Origin: Rhodospirillales bacterium
GTDB taxonomy: Bacteria > Pseudomonadota > Alphaproteobacteria > Rhodospirillales > Casp-alpha2
Length of the DNA: 64,000 nucleotides
Assembly (NCBI GenBank): GCA_017640505.1
Contig: JAEPQO010000004.1
Span: forward strand, 186,001 to 250,000
Direction: 5' to 3'
Position numbers and translations under genes: made by a program. The notes under the pieces were generated by a model. The model did not search any database. It was not told the origin of the DNA and was given only the letters and a program-made list of their open reading frames with translations. Below, in pieces: positions 8,422-30,879 of this stretch (position 1 is its first letter; every line of letters begins with the position of its first letter).

Positions 8422-9835
8422 GGATACCTTCCTTCCCGGATGCCGGATTGCCGGCGATGTTGTTGTGCGCGAACCGCAGTGCGGCGTCGGGCGCCGCATC
8501 CGCCAGCAGGCCGACGGCGTAAAGTGAATACGCATTGTCGATCATCAGCTTCGGTTTCTTCGGCCGCAGCGATTGTGCGTCTTCCTCATCGAACAGGGCC
8601 GCGTGCAGAATGTCGTCTGCCTGATCGCCATGCACCAGTACGCCTCCGGTGCCAATCACGGTCCCGACGGCGGTCAGATCCTTGCCGTACTGCACGGTCA
8701 CCGGCCCGGTGACCGATTGCTTGATTTCGATTCGACCGGCGTGGCGCTTCACGGCGCGTGCGACGGCGCTTCGGGCGAGGGCTGCATCGAAATCGCGTTC
8801 GTCGTCATTCTCGGGCAACCGCTCCGGGTCCGCTTCGATCGCCGCCAGGAACGCGTCGATCCGGTCGGCGGAAAATCCGCTTTCGCGCACGAAAGCGTCC
8901 TCACCGGCCGTGGCGACGATGGTGCGCGCATTGTGCCGCATGCCGAGATCGCCCTCGACGGTTCGCTTCGCATAGGGCTCGGGAAGACCGTACTGGATCA
9001 CGCTGCCGGAAACCGGTGCACCTTCGGCGATGGAATGCACATCGGTCGTCGCACCGCCGACGTCGACGACCAGCAGATCGCCCCATCCGGGGAACGCGTC
9101 GTTGCCCGCCGCCAGAAGCCGCGCCCCTTCCATCACCGCGGCGGGGGTCGGCATCAGGACGGCATCGAAACGCGCCTCAGCGCGGTCAATCCCCTTGGCA
9201 TGAACAATGCGTTCGATGAAAACGTCCCTGATTGCAGCCCGTGCAGGCTCCACATCAAGGACGTTGAATTCCGGCATGACGTTCCCGGCCACGCGCGCAT
9301 CGATGCCAGCGCCCTGCAACGTCTCTGCCACATCATCGGCGCACACGCGGTTCCCCGCGACAATCACCGGGCAGGCGAGACCGGCGGCGGCCAGTTTCTC
9401 TGCATTCCAGCGGATCGTTTCTTCGTTGCCACCGTCGGTGCCGCCCGCCAGCAACAGGATATCCGGCTTCTGCGCGGCAATGCCCGCCGCGTCCTTGTCC
9501 GTCAGCTTATAGGCATGTGCGCCGATCAGCTTGGCACCCGCACCCAACGCCGCAAGGCGCGCGGCCTCGGCGGTCAGTTCCTTGACCAGGCCGACCGTCA
9601 CCATGGCGAGACCGCCTGCGGCGCTCGATGATGCCAGCCGGTGGCGGAAATCGGGCAACGAACCCAGCGCCGTTTCCAGATCGCCAAGCGCGGCATCCAG
9701 GCCGACGTTGATATCGCTGGTGACCGTCGATGGCCCCTGCCCCGCACCGAGGATTGTCCCGGCGTCGAGATCGATCGCACGCAGCTTGGTATAGGTGCTG
9801 CCGAAGTCGATCAGGAGGGCGCTTTCTCCGCTCAT
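8399..9835 (-). CDS. glmL: Glutamate mutase accessory protein (ASKHA fold)
   Basis: A 478-residue GlmL/MutL protein. It has the ASKHA-type phosphate-1 motif [16 protein letters not shown] at the N-terminus and the second phosphate motif [13 protein letters not shown] mid-protein, with [11 protein letters not shown] between them. In glutamate mutase operons this protein is thought to act as a chaperone or reactivase that exchanges damaged cobalamin, by analogy with reactivating factors. It overlaps glmS by 4 bp and glmE by 23 bp, so the three are translated together. Confidence 0.92.
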
Positions 9836-10284
9836 GCGGCCGCGCCTCCGGCCCGGCCTTTCAGGTCTTGGTCCAGCATGTCGACGACGTCCGGTGTCCG
9901 TGTGCCGGGCGGAAAGGCGCGGTTGAACCCCATCTCGCGATAACGCGCCTCCACGTCGTTCCAGCTCTGCTTGCCGACCACCAGGTTGCCGCCCACGTAC
10001 AGCGTAATATCCTCAAGCCCCGCCTCGATGCACATATCGCGGAAGCCCCGGCAGTCCAGTTCCCCCTGCCCGTATAGCGACGAGACGAGAATCGCGTCGG
10101 CAGCGGTTTCGATCGCCGCCTTGATGAAATCCTCGGCCGGGGTCAGGGCACCGAGCGCGACCACCTTGTACCCTTCTTTTTCCAGCGCCATCGACAGAAT
10201 GCGGTTGCCGACGATGTGCGTATCGGCGCCGATGACGCCGGTCACCAATGTCAGCTTGCCGCGTTGCTCGGGCGTCAGGCTCAT
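9832..10284 (-). CDS. glmS: Glutamate mutase sigma (cobalamin-binding) subunit
   Basis: A 150-residue B12-binding domain protein. The cobalt-coordinating signature DxHxxG is present as D21-T-H23-I-V-G26, and the SSLYGQGE and GGNLVVGK loops that cradle the nucleotide tail follow at the expected places. It pairs with GlmE to form adenosylcobalamin-dependent glutamate mutase. Its first four bases overlap the end of the IclR regulator gene and its last four overlap glmL. No cobalamin riboswitch was recognised upstream of the operon, so control probably runs through the IclR protein. Confidence 0.93.
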
Positions 10285-11108
10285 TCCGCCGCATCCTTGT
10301 TCGCGTTCGGCGTTTCCGTCAGTTCGCGCATGATCTGTTCGATCTGCCGCGCGGTATCGCGCAAGCGATCAAGCTTGGAAACCGCCGTCTGCATCGACAT
10401 CCGCGCCGCCGGCGCATGCACCGAAAGCCCGGCGACAACCCGGTTTCTGGCATCGAACACCGGAACCGCGATGCCGATAATGCCGATCGTGTTTTCCTCG
10501 TTGTTGCAGGCATACCCCTGACGGCGGATCATTTTGAACTCGGCTTCCAGCAACTTCGGATCGGTGATCGAGAAATCCGTAAACCGCTGCAACGGCGCTG
10601 CATTGATGACGCGGCGGCGGCTTCGTGTCGGCAGATGCGCAACCAGAAGCTTGCCAAGCGCCGTTGCATGAAGCGACACGTGCGTGCCGACCCCCATCTG
10701 CAAACGCAGCGGCCAGGAACATTCGACACGGTCGATATAGACGACGCTGTCGCGGTCGAGTACGCCCAGATTACAGGTCTCGCCCAGTTCATGGACCAAC
10801 CCGCTCAGGATGGCCCGGACCGGGGACGCGTGCACAAAGGCCGACATCGCATCGGTGGCCAGCGACATCAGGTTGGGGCCAACGAGGTATTTATCCCCAT
10901 CCGGTGCACGCGTGATCATCAGCGTCTCTTCCAATTGTTTGACGACGCGAAATACCGTCGGCCGCGGCAGGTTCGTTCGTTCCGCGATGTCGTTCAGGCT
11001 GGGCGGTTTTTCCGCGGTCAGGATAACGGACAGCACGGTCATGCCCTTACCGAGCGCAGAGCCCGTATCCGGCGGGGTAATGTGCGGCAGTGTGTCTCCG
11101 TCAGGCAT
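10281..11108 (-). CDS. IclR-family transcriptional regulator
   Basis: A 275-residue regulator. A winged helix-turn-helix spans roughly residues 18-80 ([25 protein letters not shown] is the HTH region) and an IclR effector-binding domain follows, with [22 protein letters not shown] and a C-terminal [13 protein letters not shown]. Such proteins bind a small organic acid and control neighbouring catabolic genes. It is the promoter-proximal gene of the glutamate mutase operon and overlaps glmS by 4 bp, so it probably autoregulates the whole operon. The 5' region toward azlC contains two inverted repeats that are candidate operators. Confidence 0.9.
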
Positions 11109-16938: not shown

Positions 16939-17886
16939 TCAGCCTAGACGTTTCACGGCCAAATCCGAAATCGCCGTGTCCTGCACGCCGCATCCCGTGA
17001 GGTCGCAGATCGTAATTTGCTGATCGCCGGAGCGTCCCGGGTGCGTCCCCGCCGTCACATGGCCAAGTTCGATCACCTCGCCGTCGAACCCTGCCTTCTG
17101 CGCGCTTCTGAGTTCACCGCAATCGGCACATTGTTGCGGGCTGTCACAGATGACGAGGTCGGCTTTGGCCATCAACACCGGGTCAAGTTCGTTCTTGCCC
17201 GGCGCGTCAGAGCCCATGGCCGTTACGTGCGTTCCCGGCTGCACGGCATCCGCACTGAACAATGGCGACATGGCAGGTGTCGTCGTGACGATGACGTTCG
17301 ACGCACGTGCCAGGTCATCGGCGTCGGCGACGACGGTCACATCGAACGGCACGTCGGTGGCGAGCGCCTCTGCCTTCGCAGTATCGCGCCCCCAGACACG
17401 AACCTCGGCAATATCCCGGACCAGCGCGAGTGCCTGTAACTGCAGCCTTGCCTGCAGACCGGTACCGACGATGCCGGCGCGAATCGGTTCTGCAGGCGCC
17501 AGATGCCGCGCCGCCACGGCACCCGCTGCGGCGGTACGGATATCCGTCAAGTAACCGTTGTCGAGCAGGACGGCACGGACCTGCCCAGTCTCGGCATCCA
17601 GCACGGTCATCATCCCGCTCAGTGACGGCAGCCCGAGTTTTGGATTGTCGAAAAATCCGGTGCTCATCTTGACGCAGAAACCATCGAAGCCTTCGACGTA
17701 AGCGGTCTTGATGTCGACCTCGCCATGCTTTTCGGGTATATCGAGCCGCAGGATCGGCGGCATGATCGCCTTGCCCGCACTCAACGCCGTAAACGCGTCA
17801 GCAACACAATCGATGACATCGAGGTCGAGTTTTACCGTATCGCGGAGCGCATTCTCGCTGATGACGGGTGGGGTCGTTTCGGTCAT
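16939..17886 (-). CDS. eutC: Ornithine-cyclodeaminase-family protein EutC
   Basis: A 315-residue member of the ornithine cyclodeaminase/mu-crystallin family. The N-terminal half forms the substrate/dimer domain (FCVKMSTGFFDNPKLGLPS, LLDNGYLTDIRTAAAGAV). The Rossmann NAD(P) motif is GIVGTGLQARLQLQAL. The close pairing with a threonine-dehydratase-like gene and an N-acetyl-diaminobutyrate deacetylase-like gene identifies it as EutC of hydroxyectoine/ectoine breakdown, where EutB and EutC are thought to convert the hydroxylated intermediate to L-2,4-diaminobutyrate. It is the last gene of the operon, 9 bp after eutB. Plain ornithine cyclodeaminase or ketimine reductase activity remains possible. 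Confidence 0.8.
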   Translation of the reverse strand: MTETTPPVISENALRDTVKLDLDVIDCVADAFTALSAGKAIMPPILRLDIPEKHGEVDIKTAYVEGFDGFCVKMSTGFFDNPKLGLPSLSGMMTVLDAETGQVRAVLLDNGYLTDIRTAAAGAVAARHLAPAEPIRAGIVGTGLQARLQLQALALVRDIAEVRVWGRDTAKAEALATDVPFDVTVVADADDLARASNVIVTTTPAMSPLFSADAVQPGTHVTAMGSDAPGKNELDPVLMAKADLVICDSPQQCADCGELRSAQKAGFDGEVIELGHVTAGTHPGRSGDQQITICDLTGCGVQDTAISDLAVKRLG

Positions 17887-17895
17887 GACACTCCC

Positions 17896-18867
17896 TCAGC
17901 TGACGATCTCGAGGAACCGGCCCATATCCACGTTGCAGCCGCTGACGACGATCGCCGTCGGACCGGGGTTCAGGTTCAATCTTCCGGACACCAGCGCGCC
18001 GACGCCGACGGCGCCGCCGCCTTCCGCAACGATACGGTCTTCGCGGAACAATGTGCGCATGGCGGCCGCGATTTCGTCCTCGGTCAACAGAAGCGTCTCG
18101 TCGATCAGGCGCTTCGTGATCTCGAAGGTGTAGGCATTCTGCAGCCCGATACCGCCGCCCAGGCTGTCGGCGAGGCTCTCCACCTCCTCGACCGGAACCG
18201 GCTTGCCCGCACGCAGGCTTTCGATCATTGCCGCACCCCGGTCCATGGAGATGCCGATAAGCCGCGCCTGTGGACGAAGCGACTTGATTGCGATGGCGAT
18301 ACCGGCGAACAGGCCGCCGCCCGAAAGCGGCACCAGAACGTTGGCGACGTCCGGCATATCTTCGAGGATTTCGAGGCCGATGGTCCCCTGCCCGGCGATG
18401 ACGTGCGGCGTATCGAACGGATGAATGTACTTGAGGCCATCTTTCTCGATGCGCTCGAACGCCGCCGCCTCGGCGTCATCCTGAGAGCGCCCGACGATTA
18501 CCACCTCGGCCCCCAGCTTACGGATCGCGTCGACTTTCACGTCAGGCACCAGTTCCGACATATAGACGGCGCATTTAATGCCGAGCGCCTGCGCCGCATA
18601 GGCGACACCGCGGCCATGGTTGCCGGTGGAAACCGCAATGACGCCACGCGCCTTGTCCTCGTCGCTGAGCGACAGCAGCGCGTTCGTCGCGCCGCGCAGC
18701 TTGAAGGCGCCGGTATCCTGCATGGTTTCGAGCTTGAGCCGCACAGGATGACCGAAACGTTCGCTCAGCGATGGCGACAGCCGAAGCGGCGTCCGCGTCA
18801 CGCGCCCCGCGATGCGCCGGGCGGCGTCCCGAATATCGGTCAGGGTAACGGGCCTATCCGCACACAT
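17896..18867 (-). CDS. eutB: Threonine-dehydratase-like PLP enzyme EutB
   Basis: A 323-residue fold-type II PLP enzyme. The PLP-lysine lies in TGAFKLRGATNA, the phosphate-binding Gly loop is PLSGGGLFAG, and VVSGCNVDMGRF closes the C-terminus, as in hydroxyectoine-utilisation dehydratases. Compared with biosynthetic threonine deaminase it lacks the regulatory ACT domain. With EutC it is proposed to process the hydroxy-diaminobutyrate formed from hydroxyectoine. The start at 18867 (MCADRPVTLTDI) gives an 11-bp spacing from the doeB-like stop; an upstream Met would overlap it. The assignment rests on the eutB-eutC-doeB gene order as well as sequence. Confidence 0.8.
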   Translation of the reverse strand: MCADRPVTLTDIRDAARRIAGRVTRTPLRLSPSLSERFGHPVRLKLETMQDTGAFKLRGATNALLSLSDEDKARGVIAVSTGNHGRGVAYAAQALGIKCAVYMSELVPDVKVDAIRKLGAEVVIVGRSQDDAEAAAFERIEKDGLKYIHPFDTPHVIAGQGTIGLEILEDMPDVANVLVPLSGGGLFAGIAIAIKSLRPQARLIGISMDRGAAMIESLRAGKPVPVEEVESLADSLGGGIGLQNAYTFEITKRLIDETLLLTEDEIAAAMRTLFREDRIVAEGGGAVGVGALVSGRLNLNPGPTAIVVSGCNVDMGRFLEIVS

Positions 18868-18878
18868 GCGACGGCCTG

Positions 18879-19886
18879 CTATCCGGTCCAGGGTTCGGCG
18901 ATAACGGCGGCACAATCACCGCGGTTGATCAGGCCCGGCATATGTCGGCAGACGATTTGCCCGGAAACGCCGGCCGTCAATTCCGTCGGTGCGCGGTCAG
19001 GTTCTTCCAGGTAGTGCACCCGGGCGATGACATCGCCTTCGTTTACGTGCTCGCCCAGATCGCGGCAGATTTCGAACAGTCCCTCGGTCCGGGCACTCAC
19101 GAAGCAGCCGCCCTTGGGCGTGTGGATCAGCTTCGACGGCTCGGGGATATCCGGTTCCCCGTCGACGACACCGGTGTGCTTGAGGATGTTCATCACGCCG
19201 CGCTCAGCCACGGCGACGGTCTCGACCGTCGACGTCGCGGCACCGCCCAGTTCCGTCGAAACGAAGACCTTGCCCGCTTCCTCGACCACGGTATCGATCA
19301 TGCCGACGGCGTCCAGTTCCGTCAGGATCATCCCGTAAGGTGCGCCGAACGCCTTCAGCGCCGCCAGCGTCGCCGCCATCTGCGCCTCGTCCGGCAGGTC
19401 GTGAATAATGCTCATCGGCAGCAGGTTCATGGAACGCCCGCCGGCATGAATGTCGACAACCACGTCGGCGCGGCTGATCAGGCGCGTCGTCACGAAATGC
19501 GCGATCATATCGGTGATGGTGCCGCGCGCATCGCCCGGAAACGCCCGGTTCATATTGCCGCCGTCGATGGGCGACGTGCGTTTCCCGGCACGGAACGCGG
19601 GCAGGTTCAGCGCCGGCACGATGATGACGCGGCCCCGGACGTCCTCGGCCTCGAGGCTTGCGCGCAACTTCGTCAGCGCGACCGGGCCTTCGTACTCGTC
19701 ACCGTGATTGGCGCCGGTGAACAGCACGGTGGGGCCGTCACCGTTCCTGATCACCGTAATCGGCATCGGAATGGAGCCCCACGACGATTCATCCCGTGAC
19801 CACGGGATGATCATCGCACCATTCTGCTTACCGTCCCCGTCGAGGTCGATGTCGCAGGAAATCTTTGAGAATTCTTCGTCGCTCAT
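18879..19886 (-). CDS. doeB: DoeB/EutE-type N-acetyl-diaminobutyrate deacetylase
   Basis: A 335-residue zinc carboxypeptidase-like amidohydrolase of the succinylglutamate desuccinylase/aspartoacylase family. The zinc ligands are visible in GANHGDEYEG (His and Glu) and VVDIHAGGRS (His). PALNLPAFRAGKRTSPIDGGNMNR is the substrate-binding stretch with the Arg of this family. In ectoine breakdown DoeB removes the acetyl group from N-alpha-acetyl-L-2,4-diaminobutyrate. The ectoine hydrolase EutD/DoeA that normally precedes it is absent from this window; a gamma-glutamyltransferase-family gene sits in its place 49 bp upstream. Confidence 0.78.
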   Translation of the reverse strand: MSDEEFSKISCDIDLDGDGKQNGAMIIPWSRDESSWGSIPMPITVIRNGDGPTVLFTGANHGDEYEGPVALTKLRASLEAEDVRGRVIIVPALNLPAFRAGKRTSPIDGGNMNRAFPGDARGTITDMIAHFVTTRLISRADVVVDIHAGGRSMNLLPMSIIHDLPDEAQMAATLAALKAFGAPYGMILTELDAVGMIDTVVEEAGKVFVSTELGGAATSTVETVAVAERGVMNILKHTGVVDGEPDIPEPSKLIHTPKGGCFVSARTEGLFEICRDLGEHVNEGDVIARVHYLEEPDRAPTELTAGVSGQIVCRHMPGLINRGDCAAVIAEPWTG

Positions 19887-19935
19887 GGCCGGAGTGTGGG
19901 GGAACTCTCCGGCCCTTTCAAGCCGACGCCCGGAA

Positions 19936-21534
19936 TTAATATCCGACCGCGCAGCCGTCCTTGCGCGGCTCGGAACCGCCCGTAAGCACACCGTTCTCCC
20001 AGTTGATCCAGATCGCCTGAGATCCGCCGATGGGTTTCGCCGGCTTGATGCGCTTGTGGCCCATCTTTTCCAGTGCTGCGATGGTCTCGGCGGGGATCGT
20101 GCCTTCCATCTCGACCTCCATGGAGTTCTGGATCGGGAATACGCGTGGTGCGTCCTGCGCTTCCTGGATGTCCATGCCGAAGTCCAGCATCTTGGTCAGG
20201 AACTGCATGTGTCCGAAGGACTGGTATTGCCCACCCATGACGCCGAACGGCATGACGGCCTTGTCGCCCTCGCCGACCATCCCGGGGATGATCGTGTGCA
20301 GCGGCCGCTTGCCCGGCGCGATGCAGTTGAGATGCCCCTGTTCGAGGGCAAAGCCCTGCCCCCGGTTGGTCAGCACGACGCCCGATTTGGGCGCCATCAG
20401 GCCGGTGCCGAAGTTGGAGAACAGCGTGTTGATGAAGCTGCACGCGTTGCGGTCCTTATCGACAACGGAGATATAGACCGTGCTTTCGTTGACCGGCGCG
20501 GACACCGGCGGCAGCGGATCGAGCGCCTTCGCGGGATCGAAGTGCGCGGCGAGTTCCCTGGCGTGCGCATCCGACAGCAGCCAGTCGACCGGCACGTCCG
20601 CCTTGTTCGGGTCGGCGACATAGATGTTCCGGTCCTGATAGGCCAGACGTCCGAATTCGATCTCCATGTGCAGGCGTTCGACCGACAGCGGATCGACACC
20701 GTCGGTCGGCACGTCCTTGAGCATGTTGAGCAACAGGAGCGCGATGACACCCTGACCGTTCGGCGGACATTCATAGATGTCGTATCCACGGTAGTTGGTC
20801 GAGATCGGCGTCACGTATTCGCCCTCCGCCGCCTTGAAATCCTCCAGCGTATGCAGGCCGCCGAGCGATTGCAGGAATTCGACCATGTCCTCCGCAACAT
20901 CGCCGGTATAGAACGCGTCGCGGCCGTGTTCGGCGATCTTCGCCAGCGTCGCCGCCAGTTCCGGCTGGTGGTGCAGCTCGCCGCATTCCGGCAGGCGCCC
21001 GCCCGGCATGAAAACGCGGGACGTGTTGGGGCACCCCTTGATCAGTTCCTCGTTACTTTTGAAATCGGTGGAAACGCGGGACGACACGGGATAGCCGTCA
21101 CGCGCGTATTCGATGGCGGGCTGCAGCAGTTCGCCCAAATCCATCGAACCGTGATCCTTGACCAGCGTTTCCCAGGCGTCGATCACGCCCGGCACGATAA
21201 CGGCGTGCGGCGACTGGCGCTCGAGCGTCGTAATCCCGTTTTCGGCGTACCACTCGGGGGTCGCGGCAGCCGGCGCCCGGCCCGAACCGTTGAACGCGAT
21301 CATGTCCTTGATGGAACCGCCAGGGGCGTAGATGCAGAAGTTATCGCCGCCGATTCCGGTGGATTCCGGCTCGATCACGCACTGTACGGCGCAGGCCGCC
21401 ACGGCGGCGTCCATGGCATTGCCGCCACGGCGCAGAATATCAAGGCCAACCGCCGTCGAAATCGCGTGCGACGTTGCCACCATGCCATGTTTACCGAACG
21501 CCGGCGAACGGCCGGGTTTTTCCAAATCGCGCAT
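19936..21534 (-). CDS. Gamma-glutamyltransferase-family Ntn hydrolase
   Basis: A 532-residue protein of the gamma-glutamyltransferase family, which self-cleaves to expose an N-terminal Thr. The candidate nucleophile is T352 in NESTVYISVVD, followed by SNFGTGLM as in the family. Other signatures are GGNAMDAAVAA, EPESTGIGGDNF and PNGQGVIALLLL. No signal peptide is evident, so unlike most GGTs it is probably cytoplasmic. ATG at 21534 has AAGGA eight bases upstream. As the first gene of the operon with the doeB-like gene, eutB and eutC, it may hydrolyse an amide or gamma-glutamyl substrate linked to that pathway. The exact reaction is unknown. Confidence 0.85.
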   Translation of the reverse strand: MRDLEKPGRSPAFGKHGMVATSHAISTAVGLDILRRGGNAMDAAVAACAVQCVIEPESTGIGGDNFCIYAPGGSIKDMIAFNGSGRAPAAATPEWYAENGITTLERQSPHAVIVPGVIDAWETLVKDHGSMDLGELLQPAIEYARDGYPVSSRVSTDFKSNEELIKGCPNTSRVFMPGGRLPECGELHHQPELAATLAKIAEHGRDAFYTGDVAEDMVEFLQSLGGLHTLEDFKAAEGEYVTPISTNYRGYDIYECPPNGQGVIALLLLNMLKDVPTDGVDPLSVERLHMEIEFGRLAYQDRNIYVADPNKADVPVDWLLSDAHARELAAHFDPAKALDPLPPVSAPVNESTVYISVVDKDRNACSFINTLFSNFGTGLMAPKSGVVLTNRGQGFALEQGHLNCIAPGKRPLHTIIPGMVGEGDKAVMPFGVMGGQYQSFGHMQFLTKMLDFGMDIQEAQDAPRVFPIQNSMEVEMEGTIPAETIAALEKMGHKRIKPAKPIGGSQAIWINWENGVLTGGSEPRKDGCAVGY

Positions 21535-21578
21535 AGGAAATCCTTGTTCTTCTTGGGGTGCGTTTTGAACAATCTCTC

Positions 21579-21606
21579 TATGTAGTGAACATCCCCAAAT
21601 TGCCAA
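21579..21606 (-). promoter_or_regulatory. Possible promoter of the ggt-doeB-eutBC operon
   Basis: On the minus strand TTGGCA (21606-21601) is followed after 16 bases by TACATA (21584-21579), a fair sigma-70 match 45 bp before the gamma-glutamyltransferase start. The -10 box is only a partial match, so this is tentative. The same 200-bp gap must also hold the tctC promoter. Confidence 0.35.
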
Positions 21607-21734
21607 GGGTATTTATTTATGACGTCTATCTAGTCCATCCGAGTTTCGTCAGCTAAGCTTTCGTCAATTCAAAAAAGGGCAGCGTCACCCAATCCAGCTG
21701 CTTGAACAAACTCAACAACTAGGGAGAAAGTCAG

Positions 21735-22715
21735 ATGAAAAGCACCTACTTTAAAGGCCTCTGTGCCGCCGCCGCCGTCAGCGCGTTTACTGCGTTCGCG
21801 CCGGGCAATGCACACGCAGCACCGGAATTCTCGTGTTCGACCGCAAAGCTGATCGTACCGTGGAAAGCGGGGGGCGGCACCGCGGTCATTTTCAATATCT
21901 TCGAGAATATCATCAACAATGAGCTCAAAGCCGAGCCGAAGATCCAGGTTGTGACCATCTCCGGTCAGGGTGGCAACAAGGGCGCGAAGGAAGCGAAAGA
22001 CTCCAAGCCGGACGGCTGCACGCTTTTCGCCATCCACCAGAGCGCCATCGTCAGCTATCTGAACGGCCGCGTCGATTTTACGTGGGATGCGTTCGACATG
22101 GTGGCGCAGGTCACGTCGACCCCGGAAATCCTGGGGGCGTCCGGCAAGGCGCCGTGGAAGGATTTCGCCGAGTTCAAGAAGTTCGGGGTCGAAAACCCGG
22201 GCGAAGCCAAAACCGGCGCGACCTTCGGCTCCACCAGCCAGTTCATGTGGCTGCTGCTGGAAGACCTGACGGGCATGAAGTTCAAGTACGTGCCGTTCGA
22301 CGGTACGCGCGAACGTATGACGGCATTGCTGTCCAACACCGTCGATCTCGGCACCATTAACGTGGCGTCCGGCCGCAAGTACATCGAATCCGGTGAACTC
22401 AAGGCCTATGCCATCGCCGACGACGAACGCTCCAAGTTCCTGCCCGACCTGCCGACCCTGAAGGAACTCGGCGTCGACATGAACTACGCACTGGTCCGCG
22501 GTGTCGTCGCGCCGAAGGGTACGCCGGCCGACATGGTCGAGCACTGGTCGCAGGTCTTCAAGAAAGCGGCCGAGAACGAAAACCTGAAAAAGCAGCTCGA
22601 TGCCAAGGGAACGAACGTCAAATGGCTCGGGCCGAAAGCATATGCTGAGTGGTTCAAAAAGGAATACGACGACCACGAGCGCGTCGCTATCAAGATCGGC
22701 ATGTACAAGAAGTAA
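21735..22715 (+). CDS. tctC: Tripartite tricarboxylate transporter, binding protein TctC
   Basis: A 326-residue periplasmic binding protein with a signal peptide (KSTYFKGLCAAAAVSAFTAF, ending AHAAP). It shows the Bug/TctC family pattern, e.g. KLIVPWKAGGGTAVIFNIFE near the mature N-terminus and GTINVASGRKYIESGELKAYA in the second lobe. It captures a carboxylate in the periplasm for the TctAB membrane pair. AGGGAGAAAG precedes the ATG. A strong hairpin between this gene and tctB probably lets TctC be made in excess. The gene order with a 2-oxoacid decarboxylase suggests a keto-acid or its precursor as substrate (inference). Confidence 0.9.
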   Translation: MKSTYFKGLCAAAAVSAFTAFAPGNAHAAPEFSCSTAKLIVPWKAGGGTAVIFNIFENIINNELKAEPKIQVVTISGQGGNKGAKEAKDSKPDGCTLFAIHQSAIVSYLNGRVDFTWDAFDMVAQVTSTPEILGASGKAPWKDFAEFKKFGVENPGEAKTGATFGSTSQFMWLLLEDLTGMKFKYVPFDGTRERMTALLSNTVDLGTINVASGRKYIESGELKAYAIADDERSKFLPDLPTLKELGVDMNYALVRGVVAPKGTPADMVEHWSQVFKKAAENENLKKQLDAKGTNVKWLGPKAYAEWFKKEYDDHERVAIKIGMYKK

Positions 22716-22732
22716 GCCGATCAAAGATACCC

Positions 22733-22773
22733 GCCGGGGATGGCCATTTAGCCATCCCCGGCTTCCTTTTCTC
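22733..22773 (+). terminator. Hairpin between tctC and tctB (attenuator-type terminator)
   Basis: GCCGGGGATGGC at 22733-22744 and GCCATCCCCGGC at 22751-22762 form a perfect 12-bp stem with a 6-base loop, followed by TTCCTTTTCTC. It lies 18 bp after the tctC stop and 35 bp before tctB. It can end part of the transcripts and stabilise the tctC message, giving more binding protein than membrane protein. Confidence 0.85.
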
Positions 22774-22796
22774 TTGAGCAATTTAGGTGACCGGCC

Positions 22797-23285
22797 ATGA
22801 GCCGTATTAATCGCGATACCTACATCGCCATTTTTCTGATGGTGGCCTGGTGCGTATTCCTCTGGGCCAGCTTTGATATCCGGCAGATCGACTACGGCAC
22901 GATGGGTGCCGAAGTCTGGCCGCGCGGCATCCTTGTCATCCTTTTCGGACTTACGGCTGTCTATCTCTTTCAAAGCATCAAGGCCGGACCTGATGTGGCC
23001 GCTGACGAGCCGTTCACGATCGGCAATTGGCTACGGAAGTATCAGAACCCGCTCTGGTGCTACGGCCTTTATTTCATTTTCCTTTTGACCTTGCCCGTAT
23101 TCGGCATGCTCATCGGTGGCATCGCGCTTGTGTTCTGCCTGCTGACCGTTCTCGGCGAACGCACCCCACGTTTCCTGATGATTCACGCCGCCGTCGCCGT
23201 CATCTCGATTACAGGGATGTGGGCACTGTTCACCTTTGCACTCGGTGTGATCCTGCCGCAGGGCATGATCTTCACGACGCTCTGA
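22797..23285 (+). CDS. tctB: Tripartite tricarboxylate transporter, small membrane protein TctB
   Basis: A 162-residue protein with four membrane helices, in the usual position between tctC and tctA. Typical TctB layout: an N-terminal helix (DTYIAIFLMVAWCVFLWA), a periplasmic loop with GTMGAEVWPR, then three C-terminal helices. Its exact role in transport is not known for the family. AATTTAGGTGA precedes the ATG. Confidence 0.85.
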   Translation: MSRINRDTYIAIFLMVAWCVFLWASFDIRQIDYGTMGAEVWPRGILVILFGLTAVYLFQSIKAGPDVAADEPFTIGNWLRKYQNPLWCYGLYFIFLLTLPVFGMLIGGIALVFCLLTVLGERTPRFLMIHAAVAVISITGMWALFTFALGVILPQGMIFTTL

Positions 23286-23295
23286 GGGCCACGCC

Positions 23296-24981
23296 ATGAT
23301 CATAGAGAACATCATCCTCGCCGTTCAGGAACTGGCCACACTCAAGACGCTGGCGCTGATGGCCGTGGGAACGGTCGCCGGTCTTATCGCAGGGGCCATC
23401 CCGGGCTTTACCATCGCCATGGCGGTCGTCCTCACGCTGCCGTTCACGTTCGGCATGCCGCCCGCACAGGGCCTTGCGACCATGATCGGGGTCTTTGTCG
23501 GCGGGCTTTCAGGCGGCCTCATGTCGGGCATCCTGATCGGGATCCCCGGCACACCCAGTTCCGTCGCCACAACGTTCGACGGCTTTCCGATGGCGCGTGG
23601 CGGCAACCCCGGTCTGGCGCTGGGCCTCGGCGTCTGGTCCTCGTTTTTTGGCGGGATCATTTCGGCGGTGCTGCTGGTTACCCTCGCTCCGCAACTCGCG
23701 CGCATCGGCCTGGAATTCCAGCCCTGGGACTATTTCGCCCTGATCATGTTCGCGCTGACCATTGCCGCCAGCCTTGCCGGCGAGAACCTGATCAAGGGAC
23801 TGATCGCGGCCGCCTTCGGCCTGCTGGTGGCAACCATCGGCGAGGACAGCATCAACGGCATTGCACGTTTCAACTTCGGGTCCGACGCGTTGAAACAAGG
23901 CTTCGACTTCCTCCCGGTTCTGATCGGCCTTTTCGCATTCTCGCAGCTTCTGTCCGATATCGAAGACCGGGTGCGCGCCCGCAAGGCTTTGACGGAGACA
24001 GGCAGCGTCAGCGCCCGGATTGAACATCGCAAGGCCGCCATTCAGGTCTTGAAGAACTGGATCAACCTGATCCGCTCATCGTTCATCGGCGTCTTCACGG
24101 GTATCCTGCCGGCCGCCGGCAGCACGATCTCGAACATCCTCGCCTACGACCAGGCGAAGAAAGCGTCGAAGACACCGGAGAAATTCGGCACGGGCCATGC
24201 CGAGGGCATTGTTGCGCCAGAGTCCGCGAACAACGCAACGGCGGGTGGCGCGCTTATCACGATGATGGCACTCGGTATCCCTGGCGATATCGTCACCGCC
24301 GTCATGCTGGGTGCGCTGCTGATCCACGACGTGATCCCGAGCCCGAGCTTCATCAGCGACACGCCGGTACTGGCCTATGCCATCTTCATCGCGTTCTTCG
24401 TCGCCAATTTCCTGATGCTGATCCTTCAATCCGGCGCGCTTCGCCTGTTCGTGCTGGTGACGAAGGTCCGCATGTACATCCTCGCGAGCATCATTCTGGC
24501 GTATTGCGGTATCGGCATCTTCGCGCTCAACAATGTCACCTTCGACATGTGGACCCTGTTCTGGTTCGGCATCGTCGGGTACGTGATGCGCAACCTTGGC
24601 TTCCCGCTGGCACCGATGATCCTGGGTGTCGTGCTCGGCCGCATTGCCGAGCTGTGGCTGTCGCGCGCCACCGCAATCTCAACCGAGATCACGCCGTTCT
24701 TCACCCATCCCTGGTCGCTGTTCTTTATTATCCTGTCCGTGTTCTCGCTGTTCTTCTCGGCATATCAGACGCAACGCGGGAGGAAGACATGGACGCTTTT
24801 CTTCACACCGGCCTTGTTGGCGATGCTCTCCATTCCAATGTTTATGATGATCGGTACCGTTCGGCCGGTCCTGGGCGGCGTTCTTCTTGCCGCTTCGGCA
24901 TATCTGATTTTCAAACTGCATCGCCGCGGCTGGAAGGTCGACCCGAGCGATGCAGACGGGCATAGACTGACAGAAGGCTAA
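23296..24981 (+). CDS. tctA: Tripartite tricarboxylate transporter, large permease TctA
   Basis: A 561-residue permease with about twelve membrane helices and the two Gly-Pro-rich family motifs: AGAIPGFTIAMAVVLTLPFTF near the N-terminus (with GIPGTPSSVATTFDGFPMARGG) and the mid-protein repeat GILPAAGSTISNILAYDQAKKAS with ESANNATAGGALITMMALGIPGD. It is the sodium- or proton-coupled channel of the TTT system. It starts 10 bp after tctB and ends 7 bp before the decarboxylase alpha subunit, tying transport to that enzyme. Confidence 0.93.
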   Translation: MIIENIILAVQELATLKTLALMAVGTVAGLIAGAIPGFTIAMAVVLTLPFTFGMPPAQGLATMIGVFVGGLSGGLMSGILIGIPGTPSSVATTFDGFPMARGGNPGLALGLGVWSSFFGGIISAVLLVTLAPQLARIGLEFQPWDYFALIMFALTIAASLAGENLIKGLIAAAFGLLVATIGEDSINGIARFNFGSDALKQGFDFLPVLIGLFAFSQLLSDIEDRVRARKALTETGSVSARIEHRKAAIQVLKNWINLIRSSFIGVFTGILPAAGSTISNILAYDQAKKASKTPEKFGTGHAEGIVAPESANNATAGGALITMMALGIPGDIVTAVMLGALLIHDVIPSPSFISDTPVLAYAIFIAFFVANFLMLILQSGALRLFVLVTKVRMYILASIILAYCGIGIFALNNVTFDMWTLFWFGIVGYVMRNLGFPLAPMILGVVLGRIAELWLSRATAISTEITPFFTHPWSLFFIILSVFSLFFSAYQTQRGRKTWTLFFTPALLAMLSIPMFMMIGTVRPVLGGVLLAASAYLIFKLHRRGWKVDPSDADGHRLTEG

Positions 24982-24988
24982 TAAGAAA

Positions 24989-25498
24989 ATGGAATGGGGT
25001 AATGACATCTACAAGGCGATCAAGGAGGCCGGCGTCGGCCAGGTCGCCTATGTGCCGGACGCCGGGCACAAAATTCTGATCAATGCATGTATCGCCGACA
25101 ACGATATCAAGGCGGTTTCACTGACGACCGAGGAAGAAGGCATCGCGCTGTCCGCCGGCGCGTGGCTCGGTGGCGAGAAGTGCGTGATGCTGATGCAGTC
25201 GTCGGGAGTCGGCAACTGCATCAATATGCTGTCGCTGATCGAAACCTGCCGCTTTCCGTTTGCGGCCTTCGTCACCATGCGTGGCCAGTGGCACGAGTTC
25301 AATCCGTGGCAGATGCCGATGGGCACGACCACCCGCCAAGCGCTGGAAACGGCGGGTTGCCTCGTCGACGAGGTCGAGAACCCCGAAGATGTCGGCGCCA
25401 AGGCGGCGGCGACGCTGCACAAGGCCTTCGTCGGCCAACAATCGTCCGTGCTGCTGCTCAGCCAGCGCATGGTTCCCGTCAAGACGTTCGGCAAATAA
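24989..25498 (+). CDS. Two-subunit ThDP 2-oxoacid decarboxylase, alpha subunit
   Basis: A 169-residue protein equal to the pyrimidine-binding (N-terminal) domain of ThDP enzymes, as in the split ComD/ComE sulfopyruvate and phosphonopyruvate decarboxylases. The catalytic Glu lies in SLTTEEEGIALSAGAWLGG, and LMQSSGVGNCINMLSL and FVTMRGQWHEFNPWQMPMG are typical of this group. With the next gene it should decarboxylate a 2-oxoacid to an aldehyde. The adjacent TctCBA importer and the downstream aldehyde dehydrogenase support a compact catabolic route. Which acid (sulfopyruvate, phosphonopyruvate or another) cannot be decided. Confidence 0.82.
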   Translation: MEWGNDIYKAIKEAGVGQVAYVPDAGHKILINACIADNDIKAVSLTTEEEGIALSAGAWLGGEKCVMLMQSSGVGNCINMLSLIETCRFPFAAFVTMRGQWHEFNPWQMPMGTTTRQALETAGCLVDEVENPEDVGAKAAATLHKAFVGQQSSVLLLSQRMVPVKTFGK

Positions 25499-25508
25499 GG
25501 AGGAAGCC

Positions 25509-26108
25509 ATGAGTGAACGTGCAGAAAGTTTCCCCCTTCACCGCCGCGAGGTTGCCAAGACGCTGCTGCATGCCAGGGATGACATGCTGATCGTTACCGG
25601 GCTCGGGTCCACCAACTGGGATTTCACCGCAGCCGGCGACGCGCCGCGGATCTTTCCGCTGTGGGGCGCCATGGGCGGTGCCGTGCCGACGGGCCTGGGC
25701 CTCGCGCTGGCGCAACCGAACAAGCGCGTCCTGGTCGCGACCGGCGACGGCGAGATGCTGATGGGTATCGGCTCGCTGGCGACGGTTGCCGTGCAGGTGC
25801 CTAAGAACCTCGCGATCTGCGTCTTCGACAATGAACGCTATGGCGAGACCGGGATGCAGACCACGCACACCGCGTCCGTCGCCGATCTGGCGCTGACGGC
25901 GCAGGGTCTTGGCATCAAGGACACAGGCGTGATTGCCGACGAGGATGCGCTCAACGCGGACCTGAATGCGATCACCGCCGGCGATGGCCCGGTGTTCCGG
26001 GTGATCAAGGTGCGTGCCGAACCGCTCGATTTCGTTCTGCCGTCGAAAGACGGGGTTCACCTCAAGAACCGGTTCCGTCTCGATCTGCTGGGGTCGGACG
26101 CCGTCTGA
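25509..26108 (+). CDS. Two-subunit ThDP 2-oxoacid decarboxylase, beta subunit
   Basis: A 199-residue ThDP-binding (C-terminal) domain. The diphosphate/magnesium motif runs from GDGE (residues 79-82) to Asn108 in FDNERYGETGMQ, with the family's GAMGGAVPTGLGLAL just before. It pairs with the alpha subunit encoded 10 bp upstream to form the active site at the interface. ATG 25509 follows AGGAAGCC. The active enzyme would release CO2 and a small aldehyde, matching the aldehyde dehydrogenase gene further along the operon. Confidence 0.83.
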   Translation: MSERAESFPLHRREVAKTLLHARDDMLIVTGLGSTNWDFTAAGDAPRIFPLWGAMGGAVPTGLGLALAQPNKRVLVATGDGEMLMGIGSLATVAVQVPKNLAICVFDNERYGETGMQTTHTASVADLALTAQGLGIKDTGVIADEDALNADLNAITAGDGPVFRVIKVRAEPLDFVLPSKDGVHLKNRFRLDLLGSDAV

Positions 26109-26179
26109 CCGTTTGCGCACGGGTGCTGGATTCCCGGCACTTTTGCGCTAGCATGCGCGAAAGCCAATGGGAGGACACC

Positions 26180-26578
26180 ATGAACGCTCAGGACATGAGC
26201 GCCGTCGAGGCGTGCATTCAGAACTATTTCGAAGCGCTTTACACCGGCAATACGGAGCTGCTGATGGGCTCCGTGTTCCATCCGAACGCGCACCTATACG
26301 CCGCGGACATGGGGAACGGTTTCGTCGACTGGCCGATGGACGAGTTCCGTAAGGTCATCGAAAGCCGTCCGTCGCCGAAGGCTTCCGGCGCGGATCGGCG
26401 CGAACGCATCGTTTCCATGGACGAGGCCGGGCCGGACACGGTGATGGTCAAGGTCGAGGTGCTGGTCGGCACCCGCGAGTTCGTCGATTACCTGTCGGTG
26501 CTGAGGCTCGACGGAGAATGGAAGATCATTTCCAAGACATGCGTGATAATCAAGGATCACGCCGAGGCTGCGGCCTGA
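26180..26578 (+). CDS. NTF2-like (lumazine-binding type) small protein
   Basis: A 132-residue protein with the cone-shaped NTF2-like fold pattern: an N-terminal helix VEACIQNYFEALYTGNTELL, FHPNAHLYA, and a beta-rich C-terminus ending in LRLDGEWKIISKTCVII. Members bind or isomerise small ligands, and many are of unknown role; this one fits the Lumazine_bd_2-like group. ATG 26180 is chosen because GGGAGGACACC directly precedes it. It lies between the decarboxylase and the aldehyde dehydrogenase genes and is probably part of the same transcript. Confidence 0.75.
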   Translation: MNAQDMSAVEACIQNYFEALYTGNTELLMGSVFHPNAHLYAADMGNGFVDWPMDEFRKVIESRPSPKASGADRRERIVSMDEAGPDTVMVKVEVLVGTREFVDYLSVLRLDGEWKIISKTCVIIKDHAEAAA

Positions 26579-26602
26579 ACAACGACGCTTAGGGAGAGAG
26601 AC

Positions 26603-28078
26603 ATGAGCGAGCTTCAGAAATACCAGATGCTGATCGGTGGCGAATGGGTCGACGCGGCCGGCGGCGAAACGTTCGAGAGCATGAACCCGTATACGGGCGA
26701 GAACTGGGCGACGTTCCCGCGCGGCACGGCGGACGATGTCGACCGTGCCGTCGCTGCCGCCCGCAAGGCGTTCACCAGCGGCGACTGGCCGAAGATGACG
26801 GCAACCCAGCGCGGCCACCTGCTGCGCAAGCTCGGCGATCTCGTTGCCCAGCATGCCGAGGAACTGGCCCAGACCGAGGTCCGCGACAACGGCAAGCTTT
26901 TGGCGGAAATGGGCATGCAGCTCAAGTACGTGCCGCAGTGGTACTATTACTTCGGCGGCCTCGCCGACAAGATCGAGGGCGCGGTCACGCCGATCGATAA
27001 ACCCGATCACTTCCACTACACCCGCCACGAGCCGCTTGGCGTCGTCGGTGCGATCACGCCGTGGAACTCGCCGCTGCTGCTGGCCGCCTGGAAGCTTGCC
27101 CCGGCGCTCGCGGCCGGGAACACGGTGGTGTTGAAACCGTCCGAATTCACGTCGGCATCCTCGCTTGAATACGCGCGGCTGTTCGAGGAAGCGGGCTTCC
27201 CGCCCGGCGTCGTCAACGTCGTCACCGGTTTCGGGCACGAGGTCGGCGCCGCGCTGACCGAACACCCGGGCGTCGACAAGATCACGTTTACCGGCGGTCC
27301 GGAAACCGGGCGGCGCGTCTATCAGACCGGTGCGTCCCAGTTCAAGCGCGTGTCGCTGGAGCTCGGCGGCAAATCGCCCAACATCGTGTTCGATGACTGC
27401 GACATGGAAAACGCGGTGAAGGGTGCAATTTCCGGCATCTTCGCCGCGACCGGCCAGACCTGCATCGCGGGCTCGCGCCTTCTGGTGCAGGAAAGCATTC
27501 ACGACGAGTTCGTCGACAAGCTGATCGCGATGGCCAAGACCGCCAAGATGGGTGACCCGATGCTGATGGACACGCAGGTCGGCCCCGTCACCACGGTGCC
27601 GCAGTACGAAAAGATCCTGAGCTACATTGACGTCGCCAAGGGCGAAGGCGCGGAAGTGCGCCTGGGCGGCGATAAGGCCGATGCGGGCAAGTACTTCGTG
27701 CAACCGACCGTGTTCACCGGCGTCAACAACAAGATGCGGATCGCCCAGGAAGAGGTCTTCGGCCCCATCCTTTCGGTGATCCCGTTTAAGGACGAGGAAG
27801 AAGCCATCCACGTCGGCAACGACGTCGTCTACGGCCTCGCGGCGGGCGTGTGGACGCAGAACATGCGGCGCGCGTTTACGATGTCGCAGCAGCTTCGCGC
27901 CGGGTCGATCTGGGTCAACACCTACCGCGCGGTCAGCTACATGGCGCCGTTCGGCGGCTACAAGAGCTCGGGCCTCGGCCGTGAAAACGGTCAGAACGCC
28001 ATTTACGAGTTCATGCAGACGAAATCGGTGTGGATGTCCTATGCCGAGGACACCCCCAACCCGTTCATCATGAGATGA
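26603..28078 (+). CDS. NAD(P)-dependent aldehyde dehydrogenase
   Basis: A 491-residue aldehyde dehydrogenase. The catalytic Cys is C287 in GQTCIAGSR, the general-base Glu lies in LELGGKSPN, and the Asn of the oxyanion hole lies in TPWNSPLLL. It oxidises an aldehyde to the acid. AGGGAGAGAG precedes the ATG. Its placement after the decarboxylase subunits suggests it consumes the aldehyde they release. The stop overlaps the start of the SDR gene (ATGA), so the two are co-translated. Confidence 0.93.
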   Translation: MSELQKYQMLIGGEWVDAAGGETFESMNPYTGENWATFPRGTADDVDRAVAAARKAFTSGDWPKMTATQRGHLLRKLGDLVAQHAEELAQTEVRDNGKLLAEMGMQLKYVPQWYYYFGGLADKIEGAVTPIDKPDHFHYTRHEPLGVVGAITPWNSPLLLAAWKLAPALAAGNTVVLKPSEFTSASSLEYARLFEEAGFPPGVVNVVTGFGHEVGAALTEHPGVDKITFTGGPETGRRVYQTGASQFKRVSLELGGKSPNIVFDDCDMENAVKGAISGIFAATGQTCIAGSRLLVQESIHDEFVDKLIAMAKTAKMGDPMLMDTQVGPVTTVPQYEKILSYIDVAKGEGAEVRLGGDKADAGKYFVQPTVFTGVNNKMRIAQEEVFGPILSVIPFKDEEEAIHVGNDVVYGLAAGVWTQNMRRAFTMSQQLRAGSIWVNTYRAVSYMAPFGGYKSSGLGRENGQNAIYEFMQTKSVWMSYAEDTPNPFIMR

Positions 28079-28815
28079 GTGCGCCGAAAACCGTCCTCGT
28101 CACCGGCGGCTCCCGGGGCATTGGGGCCGCCGTGGTGAAACGGTTCGCGCTGGAAGACTGGCGCGTGATCTTCACCTATGTCGCCAACGATGCGGCGGCG
28201 GCGAAGGTCGCCGACGAGAGCGGCGCCCGCGCCATCAAGGGCGATGTGGGATCGGAAGCGGATATCCTGGCGCTGTTCAGGACGCTCGACGATGAACACA
28301 TTTATGTCGACGCCGTCGTCAACAACGCGGGCATCACGGGTCCGAAACGCCGCATGGACGAAGCGACATGGGACACGGTGATGGACGTGCTGCGCGTCAA
28401 CGTGGCGGGTTCGGTCGCCATGTGCCGTGAAGCCGTGAAACGCATGTCGACGGCACATGGCGGCCGTGGCGGTGCCATCGTCAACATTTCGTCGACGGCG
28501 ACCCTGCAAGGCAGCCCCAACCAGTGGGTCGATTACGCGGGCTCCAAAGGCGCCATCGACATCATCACCAAGGGCCTTGCACGCGAGGTCGGCGAGGAAG
28601 GCATCCGCGTCAACGCCGTCGCGCCCGGTTACACCATGACCGACATGTCGCGCGAGGGCGATATCGCCGGACGGTTCGAATCTTTTCGTCACGAGGTCCC
28701 GCTGGGCCGCATCGGCACGGTCGAGGAAGTCGCAGCGGGGATTTACTGGCTTTGCAGTGACGAGGCGTCGTACATCACCGGCTGCGTCCTGCCGGTCGCG
28801 GGGGGCCGGGTTTAG
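28075..28815 (+). CDS. Short-chain dehydrogenase/reductase (SDR)
   Basis: A 246-residue classical SDR. It has the cofactor-binding VTGGSRGIGAAV near residue 10, NNAGITG, catalytic Ser in NISSTATLQG, and the YAGSK active-site Tyr/Lys pair. The C-terminal YITGCVLPVAGG is typical of the FabG-like group. It likely reduces or oxidises a small alcohol/ketone of the same pathway. It starts inside the aldehyde dehydrogenase stop codon (4-bp overlap). Confidence 0.87.
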   Translation: MSAPKTVLVTGGSRGIGAAVVKRFALEDWRVIFTYVANDAAAAKVADESGARAIKGDVGSEADILALFRTLDDEHIYVDAVVNNAGITGPKRRMDEATWDTVMDVLRVNVAGSVAMCREAVKRMSTAHGGRGGAIVNISSTATLQGSPNQWVDYAGSKGAIDIITKGLAREVGEEGIRVNAVAPGYTMTDMSREGDIAGRFESFRHEVPLGRIGTVEEVAAGIYWLCSDEASYITGCVLPVAGGRV

Positions 28816-29104: not shown

Positions 29105-29893
29105 TCAGGGCCGGAACATCAGCATTGTCTGGATGAAGCGCTGCAGCACCGGTTTGATGCCGGCGGCCAGGTCTTCGCGATAACCGAACGGATAGACCTC
29201 GTCCATGTAGGTCGCCCAGCTCAGTTCCAGCTGCACGGCATGGATATCGTTTGCCGGATCGCCGTAATGGCGCGTGATGTAGCCGCCGATGTAGCGACCG
29301 TTCATCTTCCACGTATAGCCCGCGGCTTCCCCGGCAACGGCTTCCAGGTTTTCCTGCAGGCGCGGGGCGCAGCTTTCGCCGTTGTTGGTGCCAAGGTTGA
29401 TGTCCCAGAGCTTGCCGTCGAAAAACCGCGGCAGTTCGCTCTTGATCGAATGCGCGTCCCACAAAAGCGCATAGCCGTGCTCCGCCTTGATCGCGGCCAG
29501 CGTCTCGGCCAGCTTGGCGTGATAGGGCGTGTGATACGCATCGCGGCGGGCCTCGATCTCGGCGTCGTCCGGTTCCTCGCCCGGCTTGTAGATCGGCTCC
29601 CGCTGACCGGTCCTGAGCGGTAGCAGCCCTTCGGTGTCCTGACCCGGATAAAGATTCACGTTCTCCGGCGGCCGGTTGAGATCGACGCAATAACGGCTGT
29701 GTGTCGCGCCCAGCATGTGCGCCCCCATGGCCGGCGCGAAATCATAAAGCGTCGGAATGTTCCAGTCGGTATCAGCGACCAGCAAGGCCTCGTCCGTCAT
29801 GCGCGGTTTCAGGTCATCCGGGATATGCGTGCCGGGATGCGGCGCACTGATCAGAAGCGGCGCCGTGCCGGGCAGGTAGTCGAAGATGTCCAT
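29105..29893 (-). CDS. N-formylglutamate amidohydrolase family protein
   Basis: A 262-residue member of the N-formylglutamate deformylase family. Typical segments are LLISAPHPGTHIP near the N-terminus, SRYCVDLNRPPEN, LLWDAHSIKSELP and GGYITRHYGDP; the Asp/His residues in these segments are the likely metal site. HutG-type enzymes release formate from N-formylglutamate at the end of histidine degradation. No other hut genes are present, so the substrate may be another N-formyl amino acid. It is translationally coupled to the upstream nitrilase (TAATG overlap), suggesting sequential hydrolysis of an amide and a formyl group (inference). Confidence 0.85.
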   Translation of the reverse strand: MDIFDYLPGTAPLLISAPHPGTHIPDDLKPRMTDEALLVADTDWNIPTLYDFAPAMGAHMLGATHSRYCVDLNRPPENVNLYPGQDTEGLLPLRTGQREPIYKPGEEPDDAEIEARRDAYHTPYHAKLAETLAAIKAEHGYALLWDAHSIKSELPRFFDGKLWDINLGTNNGESCAPRLQENLEAVAGEAAGYTWKMNGRYIGGYITRHYGDPANDIHAVQLELSWATYMDEVYPFGYREDLAAGIKPVLQRFIQTMLMFRP

Positions 29894-30744: not shown

Positions 30745-30879
30745 ATCATACTCCCATGTCTGAAATTGTTTAATCACGGCGTCGCGAGGCTGTCCAGTAA
30801 CGCGGTCATTACGCGGGCCTTCCGGGATCGGGATTGGGGTGCTATCTATGAGGCAACAATAATGCCTGGGGAGGTGCCG

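Follow-up and report, generated by a model that had tools for sequence, protein, structure and literature searches.

The closest described relatives of the genes considered here are the EutABCDE/DoeAB clusters for ectoine degradation in Ruegeria pomeroyi, Halomonas elongata and Sinorhizobium meliloti. A passage of one published proposal has the hydroxyectoine ring remain intact while EutA, EutB and EutC act on it by inversion, dehydration and reduction (PMC5924519), and a passage of the paper on the regulator EnuR describes the precise activities of these three proteins as unknown (PMC8739950). We have analysed a 64,000-nucleotide stretch from a Rhodospirillales bacterium (GenBank assembly GCA_017640505.1, contig JAEPQO010000004.1, positions 186,001 to 250,000 of the forward strand; hereafter "the window"), in which four real genes at 16939-21534 on the minus strand are transcribed in the order ggt-eutE-eutB-eutC. 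This locus resembles the described clusters in bringing the EutE, EutB and EutC families together in one operon, but it is headed by a gene of the gamma-glutamyltransferase (GGT) family, its gene order differs (EutD-linked clusters run eutB-eutC-eutD-eutE), and no EutD, EnuR, EutA, Ehu or Ueh component was seen in it, UehABC not having been searched for. Its EutE and EutB fall outside the EutD-linked clades, its EutC stands apart, and a tripartite tricarboxylate transporter (TTT) and an operon with thiamine pyrophosphate (TPP) enzyme and aldehyde dehydrogenase (ALDH) genes are added.

We see an even chance that this operon and a divergent one beside it (tctCBA-tppAB-SnoaL-ALDH-SDR, at 21735-28815 on the plus strand, beginning ~200 bp upstream of ggt; SDR, short-chain dehydrogenase) form one catabolic unit, drawn from ectoine-degradation families but probably not from orthologues, which would de-acylate, deaminate and decarboxylate an N-acyl amino acid. 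A preliminary description of the locus had listed EutC-, EutB- and DoeB/EutE-type genes in their usual order, with a GGT-family gene foremost and in place of the ectoine hydrolase EutD. The gene families named there match their models (EutE and EutB pass the NCBIfam cut-offs; EutC passes one of two, falling short of the equivalog TIGR02992), an NCBIfam profile scan found no EutD in the operon, and ggt is indeed the first gene in the direction of minus-strand transcription. The order is not the usual one, and since ggt does not sit where eutD does, "in place of" holds only as a statement about content. A canonical control cluster from the same taxonomic order (L055; EutE 568.5, EutB 481.7, EutC 525.8 and EutD 735 bits) shows that the window EutE, EutB and EutC all score lower than their canonical counterparts.

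Phylogeny sets the EutE, EutB and EutC proteins of this genus apart from those that accompany EutD. The 510 EutE loci from named genomes were narrowed to the best 80; of these, 73 have an EutD homologue in the fetched stretch by tblastn, three loci of the genus have GGT and no EutD, and four have neither, three of the four being on a short contig or next to a contig end. In a tree of EutE, for which, as for the other trees, a script retained between roughly a third and an eighth of the EutD-linked sequences as rows, a 35-row clade with support 100 contains 32 EutD-linked rows and leaves the genus outside; its three other rows, labelled as lacking EutD, are L118 and L165, which show EutD by tblastn, and L171, which starts at a contig end, and two rows labelled as having EutD (L105 and the distant L060) lie outside it. 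The window protein was again outside the 19-row EutD-linked clade (100/100) of a second, careful EutE tree, in which the genus stands, with modest support (87/71), beside an EutE-like protein of genome G140, a genome that encodes EutB in the stretch concerned and lacks EutD there. For EutB the EutD-linked clade has 27 rows and support 98, the genus again outside, and the four EutC proteins of the genus form a branch of their own (support 100) in an unrooted tree, keeping 99 of the 119 columns that are invariant in EutD-linked EutC. The contexts of three EutE-like loci without EutD (L049, L053, L096) were uninformative. By homology, then, the cluster is an ectoine system and by orthology probably not; its chemistry is probably of the same type as that of the ectoine enzymes, with a change of substrate possible.

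The GGT-family protein begins at an ATG at 21534 with AAGGA upstream and shows no evident signal peptide on inspection by eye. Among proteins of solved structure, the cephalosporin-acylase-like 2nlz is its best relative (367.8 bits, as against 252.2 for Escherichia coli GGT), and the two have the NRG...HTIIPG signature in common. The equivalents of E. coli T391, the nucleophile, and T409 are kept, the catalytic threonine being T376 in a 556-aa frame. The E. coli residues R114, N411, Q430, D433, S462 and S463, which we take to bind the gamma-glutamyl group, are replaced by S, F, R, G, H and T in all seven GGTs of the genus, none of the six being kept; by contrast, a GGT paralogue in the same genome (L001) retains R114, D433 and S462. 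The same pocket letters recur at 17 GGT loci outside the genus, except that N411 is Y in two, D433 is S in two and T409 is S in eight. The protein thus has the family fold and catalytic threonine of a gamma-glutamyltransferase (EC 2.3.2.2) and lacks the presumed gamma-glutamyl-binding residues, on which ground we rejected gamma-glutamyl chemistry for it. An amidase or acylase is favoured by these residues, and a gamma-glutamyl intermediate appears unlikely.

Recurrence of the locus was followed in eight genomes of the genus, the window's own included, and presence was counted by tblastn because our open reading frame (ORF) caller chose the wrong strand in some GC-rich loci (e.g. L107). Seven of the eight carry the locus, each with GGT, EutE, EutB, TctA and both TPP genes; ALDH was matched in six, SnoaL in five and EutC in four, where absence of EutC means no match on the contigs fetched and not in whole genomes. 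The eighth genome (G157, 58% complete), in which EutE and the EutD-like protein discussed below were the proteins sought, gave for EutE only a 45% partial match. One locus is split over two contigs with EutE in two pieces (G155), and the G154 EutE is divided between two frames. The tctCBA genes of G046 and G156 are a distant version (42-65% identity) and the other genes keep 83-94%, which suggests that it is the enzymes, and not the importer, that have been held together. Loci L100, L101, L102, L103, L104, L169 and L175 were taken to be the same records as G046, G153, G156, G140, G088, G137 and G051 and not as independent evidence, and L288 and L289 are one genome. At the G153 locus (L086) an Sbt-type bicarbonate transporter gene occupies the place of eutC.

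The substrate class that we would propose is an N-acyl, probably beta-hydroxy, alpha-amino acid; class, reactions and their order are all inferred, and we give them as much credence as doubt. The TTT importer would take up an acylated carboxylate, the cytoplasmic GGT-family hydrolase would cut an amide bond, and the EutE-like zinc enzyme would strip off an N-acyl substituent, probably acetyl. EutB would then act on the beta-hydroxy alpha-amino acid so released, eliminating water or ammonia to give an imine or 2-oxo acid; EutC, where present, may reduce the imine, the TPP pair would decarboxylate the 2-oxo acid and the ALDH would oxidise the resulting aldehyde. The retention of EutB and the TPP pair at the three of seven loci where EutC was not seen fits a role of EutB as an ammonia-lyase leading toward a 2-oxo acid. 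With 3-hydroxy-2,4-diaminobutyrate as this amino acid, the route would end at beta-alanine. A more specific version, which we hold to be rather doubtful, is a sister pathway independent of EutD, in which the GGT amidase, EutE and EutB would supply the TPP decarboxylase and ALDH in the breakdown of an undescribed hydroxy-amino acid that carries an N-acyl group; this might be a derivative of hydroxyectoine, with beta-alanine as the end product. A dehydratase coupled to an imine reductase is also the logic of BhcB and BhcD in the beta-hydroxyaspartate cycle, with which the window proteins share fold families; they score far under the Bhc cut-offs (220 against 550 and 180.1 against 500).

Several observations weigh against a single pathway for an altered substrate. 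The genes flanking the locus are likewise syntenic within the genus, so that recurrence there carries limited weight and does not prove one pathway. G154 lacks both ALDH and SnoaL at the locus and G153 lacks SnoaL, and the gap between ggt and eutE widens to ~0.8 kb in G154 and to ~1.1 kb in G153, where it holds a lyase-family ORF (248 aa, inside the stretch L086:7942-11718, matching the latter two thirds of the beta-eliminating-lyase family), and so the ggt-eutE link is loose in these two genomes. Most columns invariant in EutD-linked EutE (87 of 103, the window being the only genus row) and EutB (69 of 87, five genus rows) are retained, and an ectoine-type substrate therefore stays compatible with both; adding the EutB of Priestia megaterium leaves the root side and deepest forks of the EutB tree unresolved. 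The TPP and ALDH proteins are under the equivalog cut-offs, so that these models assign them no substrate. Finally, none of the 17 fetched GGT loci outside the genus (55-62% identity) matches EutE, EutB, EutC, the EutD-like protein, TppA, TppB or TctA, and the link between GGT and the eut genes therefore rests on one genus. This GGT subclass was matched at E<=1e-150 in 107 out of 385 genomes sampled from the class, the window's own among the 107, in unrelated contexts, as would be expected if the GGT were a neighbour with a job of its own, such as a general amidase or acylase, and EutE, EutB and EutC did without it in acting on a small N-acetyl-hydroxy amino acid. The wide gaps of G153 and G154 fit that idea too; it is nevertheless quite unlikely in our estimation, as ggt heads a tight operon in the window, ~50 bp from eutE, and is present at all seven loci of the genus. 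It is highly improbable that the GGT itself opens the ectoine ring as a non-homologous replacement for EutD: it shares one operon with EutE and EutB from which EutD is absent, but it is not at the position of EutD, its partner enzymes lie outside the EutD-linked clades, its subclass is common with no eut genes nearby, and EhuB is not over its cut-off in the genome.

A serious rival, which we rate as possible though well short of even, is that (hydroxy)ectoine catabolism is dispersed in this organism, a EutD-like protein opening the ring in trans, EutE, EutB and EutC of the window finishing the degradation and the GGT carrying out another or accessory step. A full-length EutD-like protein of the M24 family is indeed encoded on another contig (C4), with 490.6 bits to TIGR02993 (the next match in the genome reaching 130.2) and 384 bits to Halomonas DoeA, whose Glu255, presumably catalytic, has its position kept. 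Orthologues (79-100%) occur in six of the eight genomes, counting the window's own, and a seventh (G154) has a fragment of 97 residues. Relatives of this type stand next to EutB and near EutE in Minwuiaceae, where L105:9986-16601 has an MTTB-family gene, thymidylate synthase, dihydrofolate reductase, EutB and EutD-like genes on one strand and EutE on the other, and in Priestia megaterium within the row eutB-M24-cyclodeaminase-M20-homoserine-dehydrogenase-ALDH; both layouts genuinely favour the rival. In a passage of a 2026 Vibrio paper the Priestia-type layout is read as putative ectoine catabolism of Bacillota (PMC13188858), and a passage of another paper reports scattered doe genes in Methylobacter and others (PMC7192451). 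On the other side, the score is under the cut-off of 613, and in a careful EutD tree DoeA and 16 EutE-linked proteins form a 17-row clade (100/100) that excludes the C4 protein, which falls with Minwuiaceae, Priestia, haloarchaeal and other proteins in an unresolved remainder; the orthologues of the genus keep 98 of the 136 columns invariant in EutD-linked proteins. The DoeA clade is no strict test of function, since at a Granulosicoccaceae locus (L166:9642-11493 onward) EutE is inside its EutD-linked clade and EutD is outside the DoeA clade, as is that of the distant L060. A further EutD tree took M24 proteins of the window organism as outgroup; very long branches misplaced its root, which was not used. 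The distribution also speaks against dispersal: the window unit of G153 comes with no EutD-like match, and the 58% complete G157 has, conversely, the EutD-like protein and no window-type EutE. The six fetched loci of the C4 type share the same adjoining ABC transporter and AraC regulator genes, and, as far as each contig extends, RACo and pterin-methyltransferase genes (in the window organism, G000, at L045:4082-19350). In this corrinoid-methyltransferase setting the protein may hydrolyse a methylated compound of the ectoine-like or betaine kind.

The regulator and transporter evidence is similarly divided. An EnuR-like MocR gene lies on contig C6, its score (NF052286, 473.7 bits) just under the cut-off of 480, but it is unlinked to the window cluster, next to which there is neither EnuR nor a known ectoine transporter (UehABC was not searched for). 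Its product shares 31-36% identity with the EnuRs of canonical loci, which among themselves, measured against the L055 EnuR, mostly reach 47-51%, with a second set at 35-39% and the closest relatives at 90-94%. An EutB-family dehydratase encoded near it scores 185.2 bits (cut-off 413.35), and an EutA-like racemase, unlinked to the window cluster, scores 168 bits (cut-off 318). In a comparison limited to our own reference set, the regions around the MocR and racemase genes gave an EutB-family dehydratase (33%) and an M24 protein (23%), with neither EutE nor EutC among the matches. The racemase gene (L317:6255-8182, contig C5) adjoins that of an M24 protein with 60.6 bits to EutD. In the genome EhuB scores 35.2 at best, against a cut-off of 190.9, UehABC again not searched for, and there is a single EutE, on which ground, together with the regions just described, a complete eut cluster elsewhere was rejected; the preliminary description had named a complete eutD-containing cluster elsewhere as what would overturn it, and none was found. 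Of the two options left there, a ring-opening enzyme elsewhere now has a candidate, with the reservations given above, and EnuR likewise a sub-cut-off match; degradation of a related compound is somewhat favoured by the placement of EutE, EutB and EutC, its proposed gamma-glutamyl intermediate being disfavoured by the pocket and its N-acyl alternative plausible.

GGT relatives were also seen in other settings. Seven plasmid stretches with such relatives showed no match to EutE, EutB, EutC or EutD-like proteins (tblastn, E<=1e-6, the threshold applied to these proteins at the 17 outside loci too). On plasmids of two Rhodobacterales (L323, L324) genes annotated as ehuACD, betaine-aldehyde dehydrogenase (40% identical to the ALDH of the window) and carbon-nitrogen hydrolase are found a few kb away from a GGT with 60-61% identity, again with no EutE match, and L324 adds a TPP decarboxylase and a Xaa-Pro-peptidase-family protein. 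In G142 (L221:7352-10227) a distant GGT-family gene (32%) adjoins an EutD-type M24 gene (46% to the C4 protein).

The features of the two operons are collected in Table 1. The identity of the TPP pair as sulfopyruvate decarboxylase ComDE was considered and rejected, both equivalog cut-offs being missed. An alignment of seven intergenic sequences revealed no evident shared operator between the operons, and the contexts of three loci around outside TPP relatives (L301-L303) were uninformative.

Table 1. Coordinates of the genes and intergenic region of the two divergent operons, with the evidence for each assignment (bit scores and model cut-offs)
Feature	Position	Strand	Evidence
eutC-like, ornithine-cyclodeaminase-family protein	16939..17886	-	PRK08291 435 bits, cut-off 408; TIGR02992 407.6, under cut-off 471.65
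eutB-like, pyridoxal phosphate-dependent dehydratase/ammonia-lyase	17896..18867	-	PRK07476 and TIGR02991 both above cut-off, with scores of 476.2 and 453.0 bits (cut-off 413.35 for the latter score); start inferred, open frame to 18915
eutE/doeB-like, N-acyl amino acid deacylase	18879..19886	-	TIGR02994 431 bits, cut-off 402.7; start inferred, open frame to 19991
ggt-family gene, 532 aa, N-terminal nucleophile (Ntn) hydrolase fold	19936..21534	-	PF01019 469 bits; TIGR00066 398.4, cut-off 357.85; first in operon
Intergenic region between divergent operons	21535..21734	.	ORF map
tctC-type solute-binding protein of TTT	21735..22715	+	PF03401 100.5 bits
tctB-type small membrane subunit	22797..23285	+	ORF, conserved position; named by position and length only; no NCBIfam match
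tctA-type large membrane subunit	23296..24981	+	ORF, conserved position; named by position and length only; no NCBIfam match
tppA, N-terminal subunit of two-subunit TPP 2-oxoacid decarboxylase, ComD-like	24989..25498	+	TIGR03845 109.8 bits, cut-off 147.95; TEEEG motif
tppB, C-terminal TPP-binding subunit, ComE-like	25509..26108	+	PF02775; TIGR03846 120 bits, cut-off 221.5; GDG-x-N motif; start inferred
SnoaL/lumazine-binding-like small protein	26180..26578	+	PF12893; start inferred
ALDH, nearest betaine-aldehyde dehydrogenase	26603..28078	+	TIGR01804 536.1 bits, under cut-off 668.6; GQTC and LELGGKS motifs
SDR	28075..28815	+	PF13561/PF00106; start inferred

Elsewhere in the window, 6922-11108 carries a glutamate mutase set, MutE (444 bits, cut-off 390.1), GlmL (566.1, cut-off 475) and MutS (184, cut-off 135.8), adjoined by an IclR-type regulator for which BhcR ranks second among the families (160.8, cut-off 350). 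Convergent with the SDR gene, 29105-30777 holds an N-formylglutamate deformylase HutG (321.5 bits, cut-off 278.75) and a nitrilase-fold amidase, nearest to the deaminated glutathione amidase family (205.7, cut-off 500).

Among other described systems, the putative EutD-EutB-EutC clusters of Bacillota, as set out in a passage of PMC13188858, are like the window locus in having EutB with a cyclodeaminase, an ALDH and no EnuR. They have no EutE, another peptidase-family enzyme perhaps filling the role of deacylase, and, unlike the window, they keep an EutD-like M24 protein and have an M20 peptidase and PucR, with no GGT in the stretch seen. Within the collection of papers searched, there was no paper that joins ectoine, hydroxyectoine and gamma-glutamyltransferase, none that joins TTT with a gamma-glutamyltransferase family protein, and none with at least two of sulfopyruvate decarboxylase, TTT and gamma-glutamyltransferase. 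As described in passages of the papers concerned, two published surveys of ectoine degraders begin from EutD or from eutD-eutE pairs (PMC13188858, PMC8739950), and annotation based on cut-offs would label the window genes EutE and EutB. If the pathway proposed here is real, those labels credit this Rhodospirillales-type lineage with more ectoine use than it has, and surveys that rely on EutD would miss a sister pathway that does without it, a further route for the use of acylated, nitrogen-rich amino acids.

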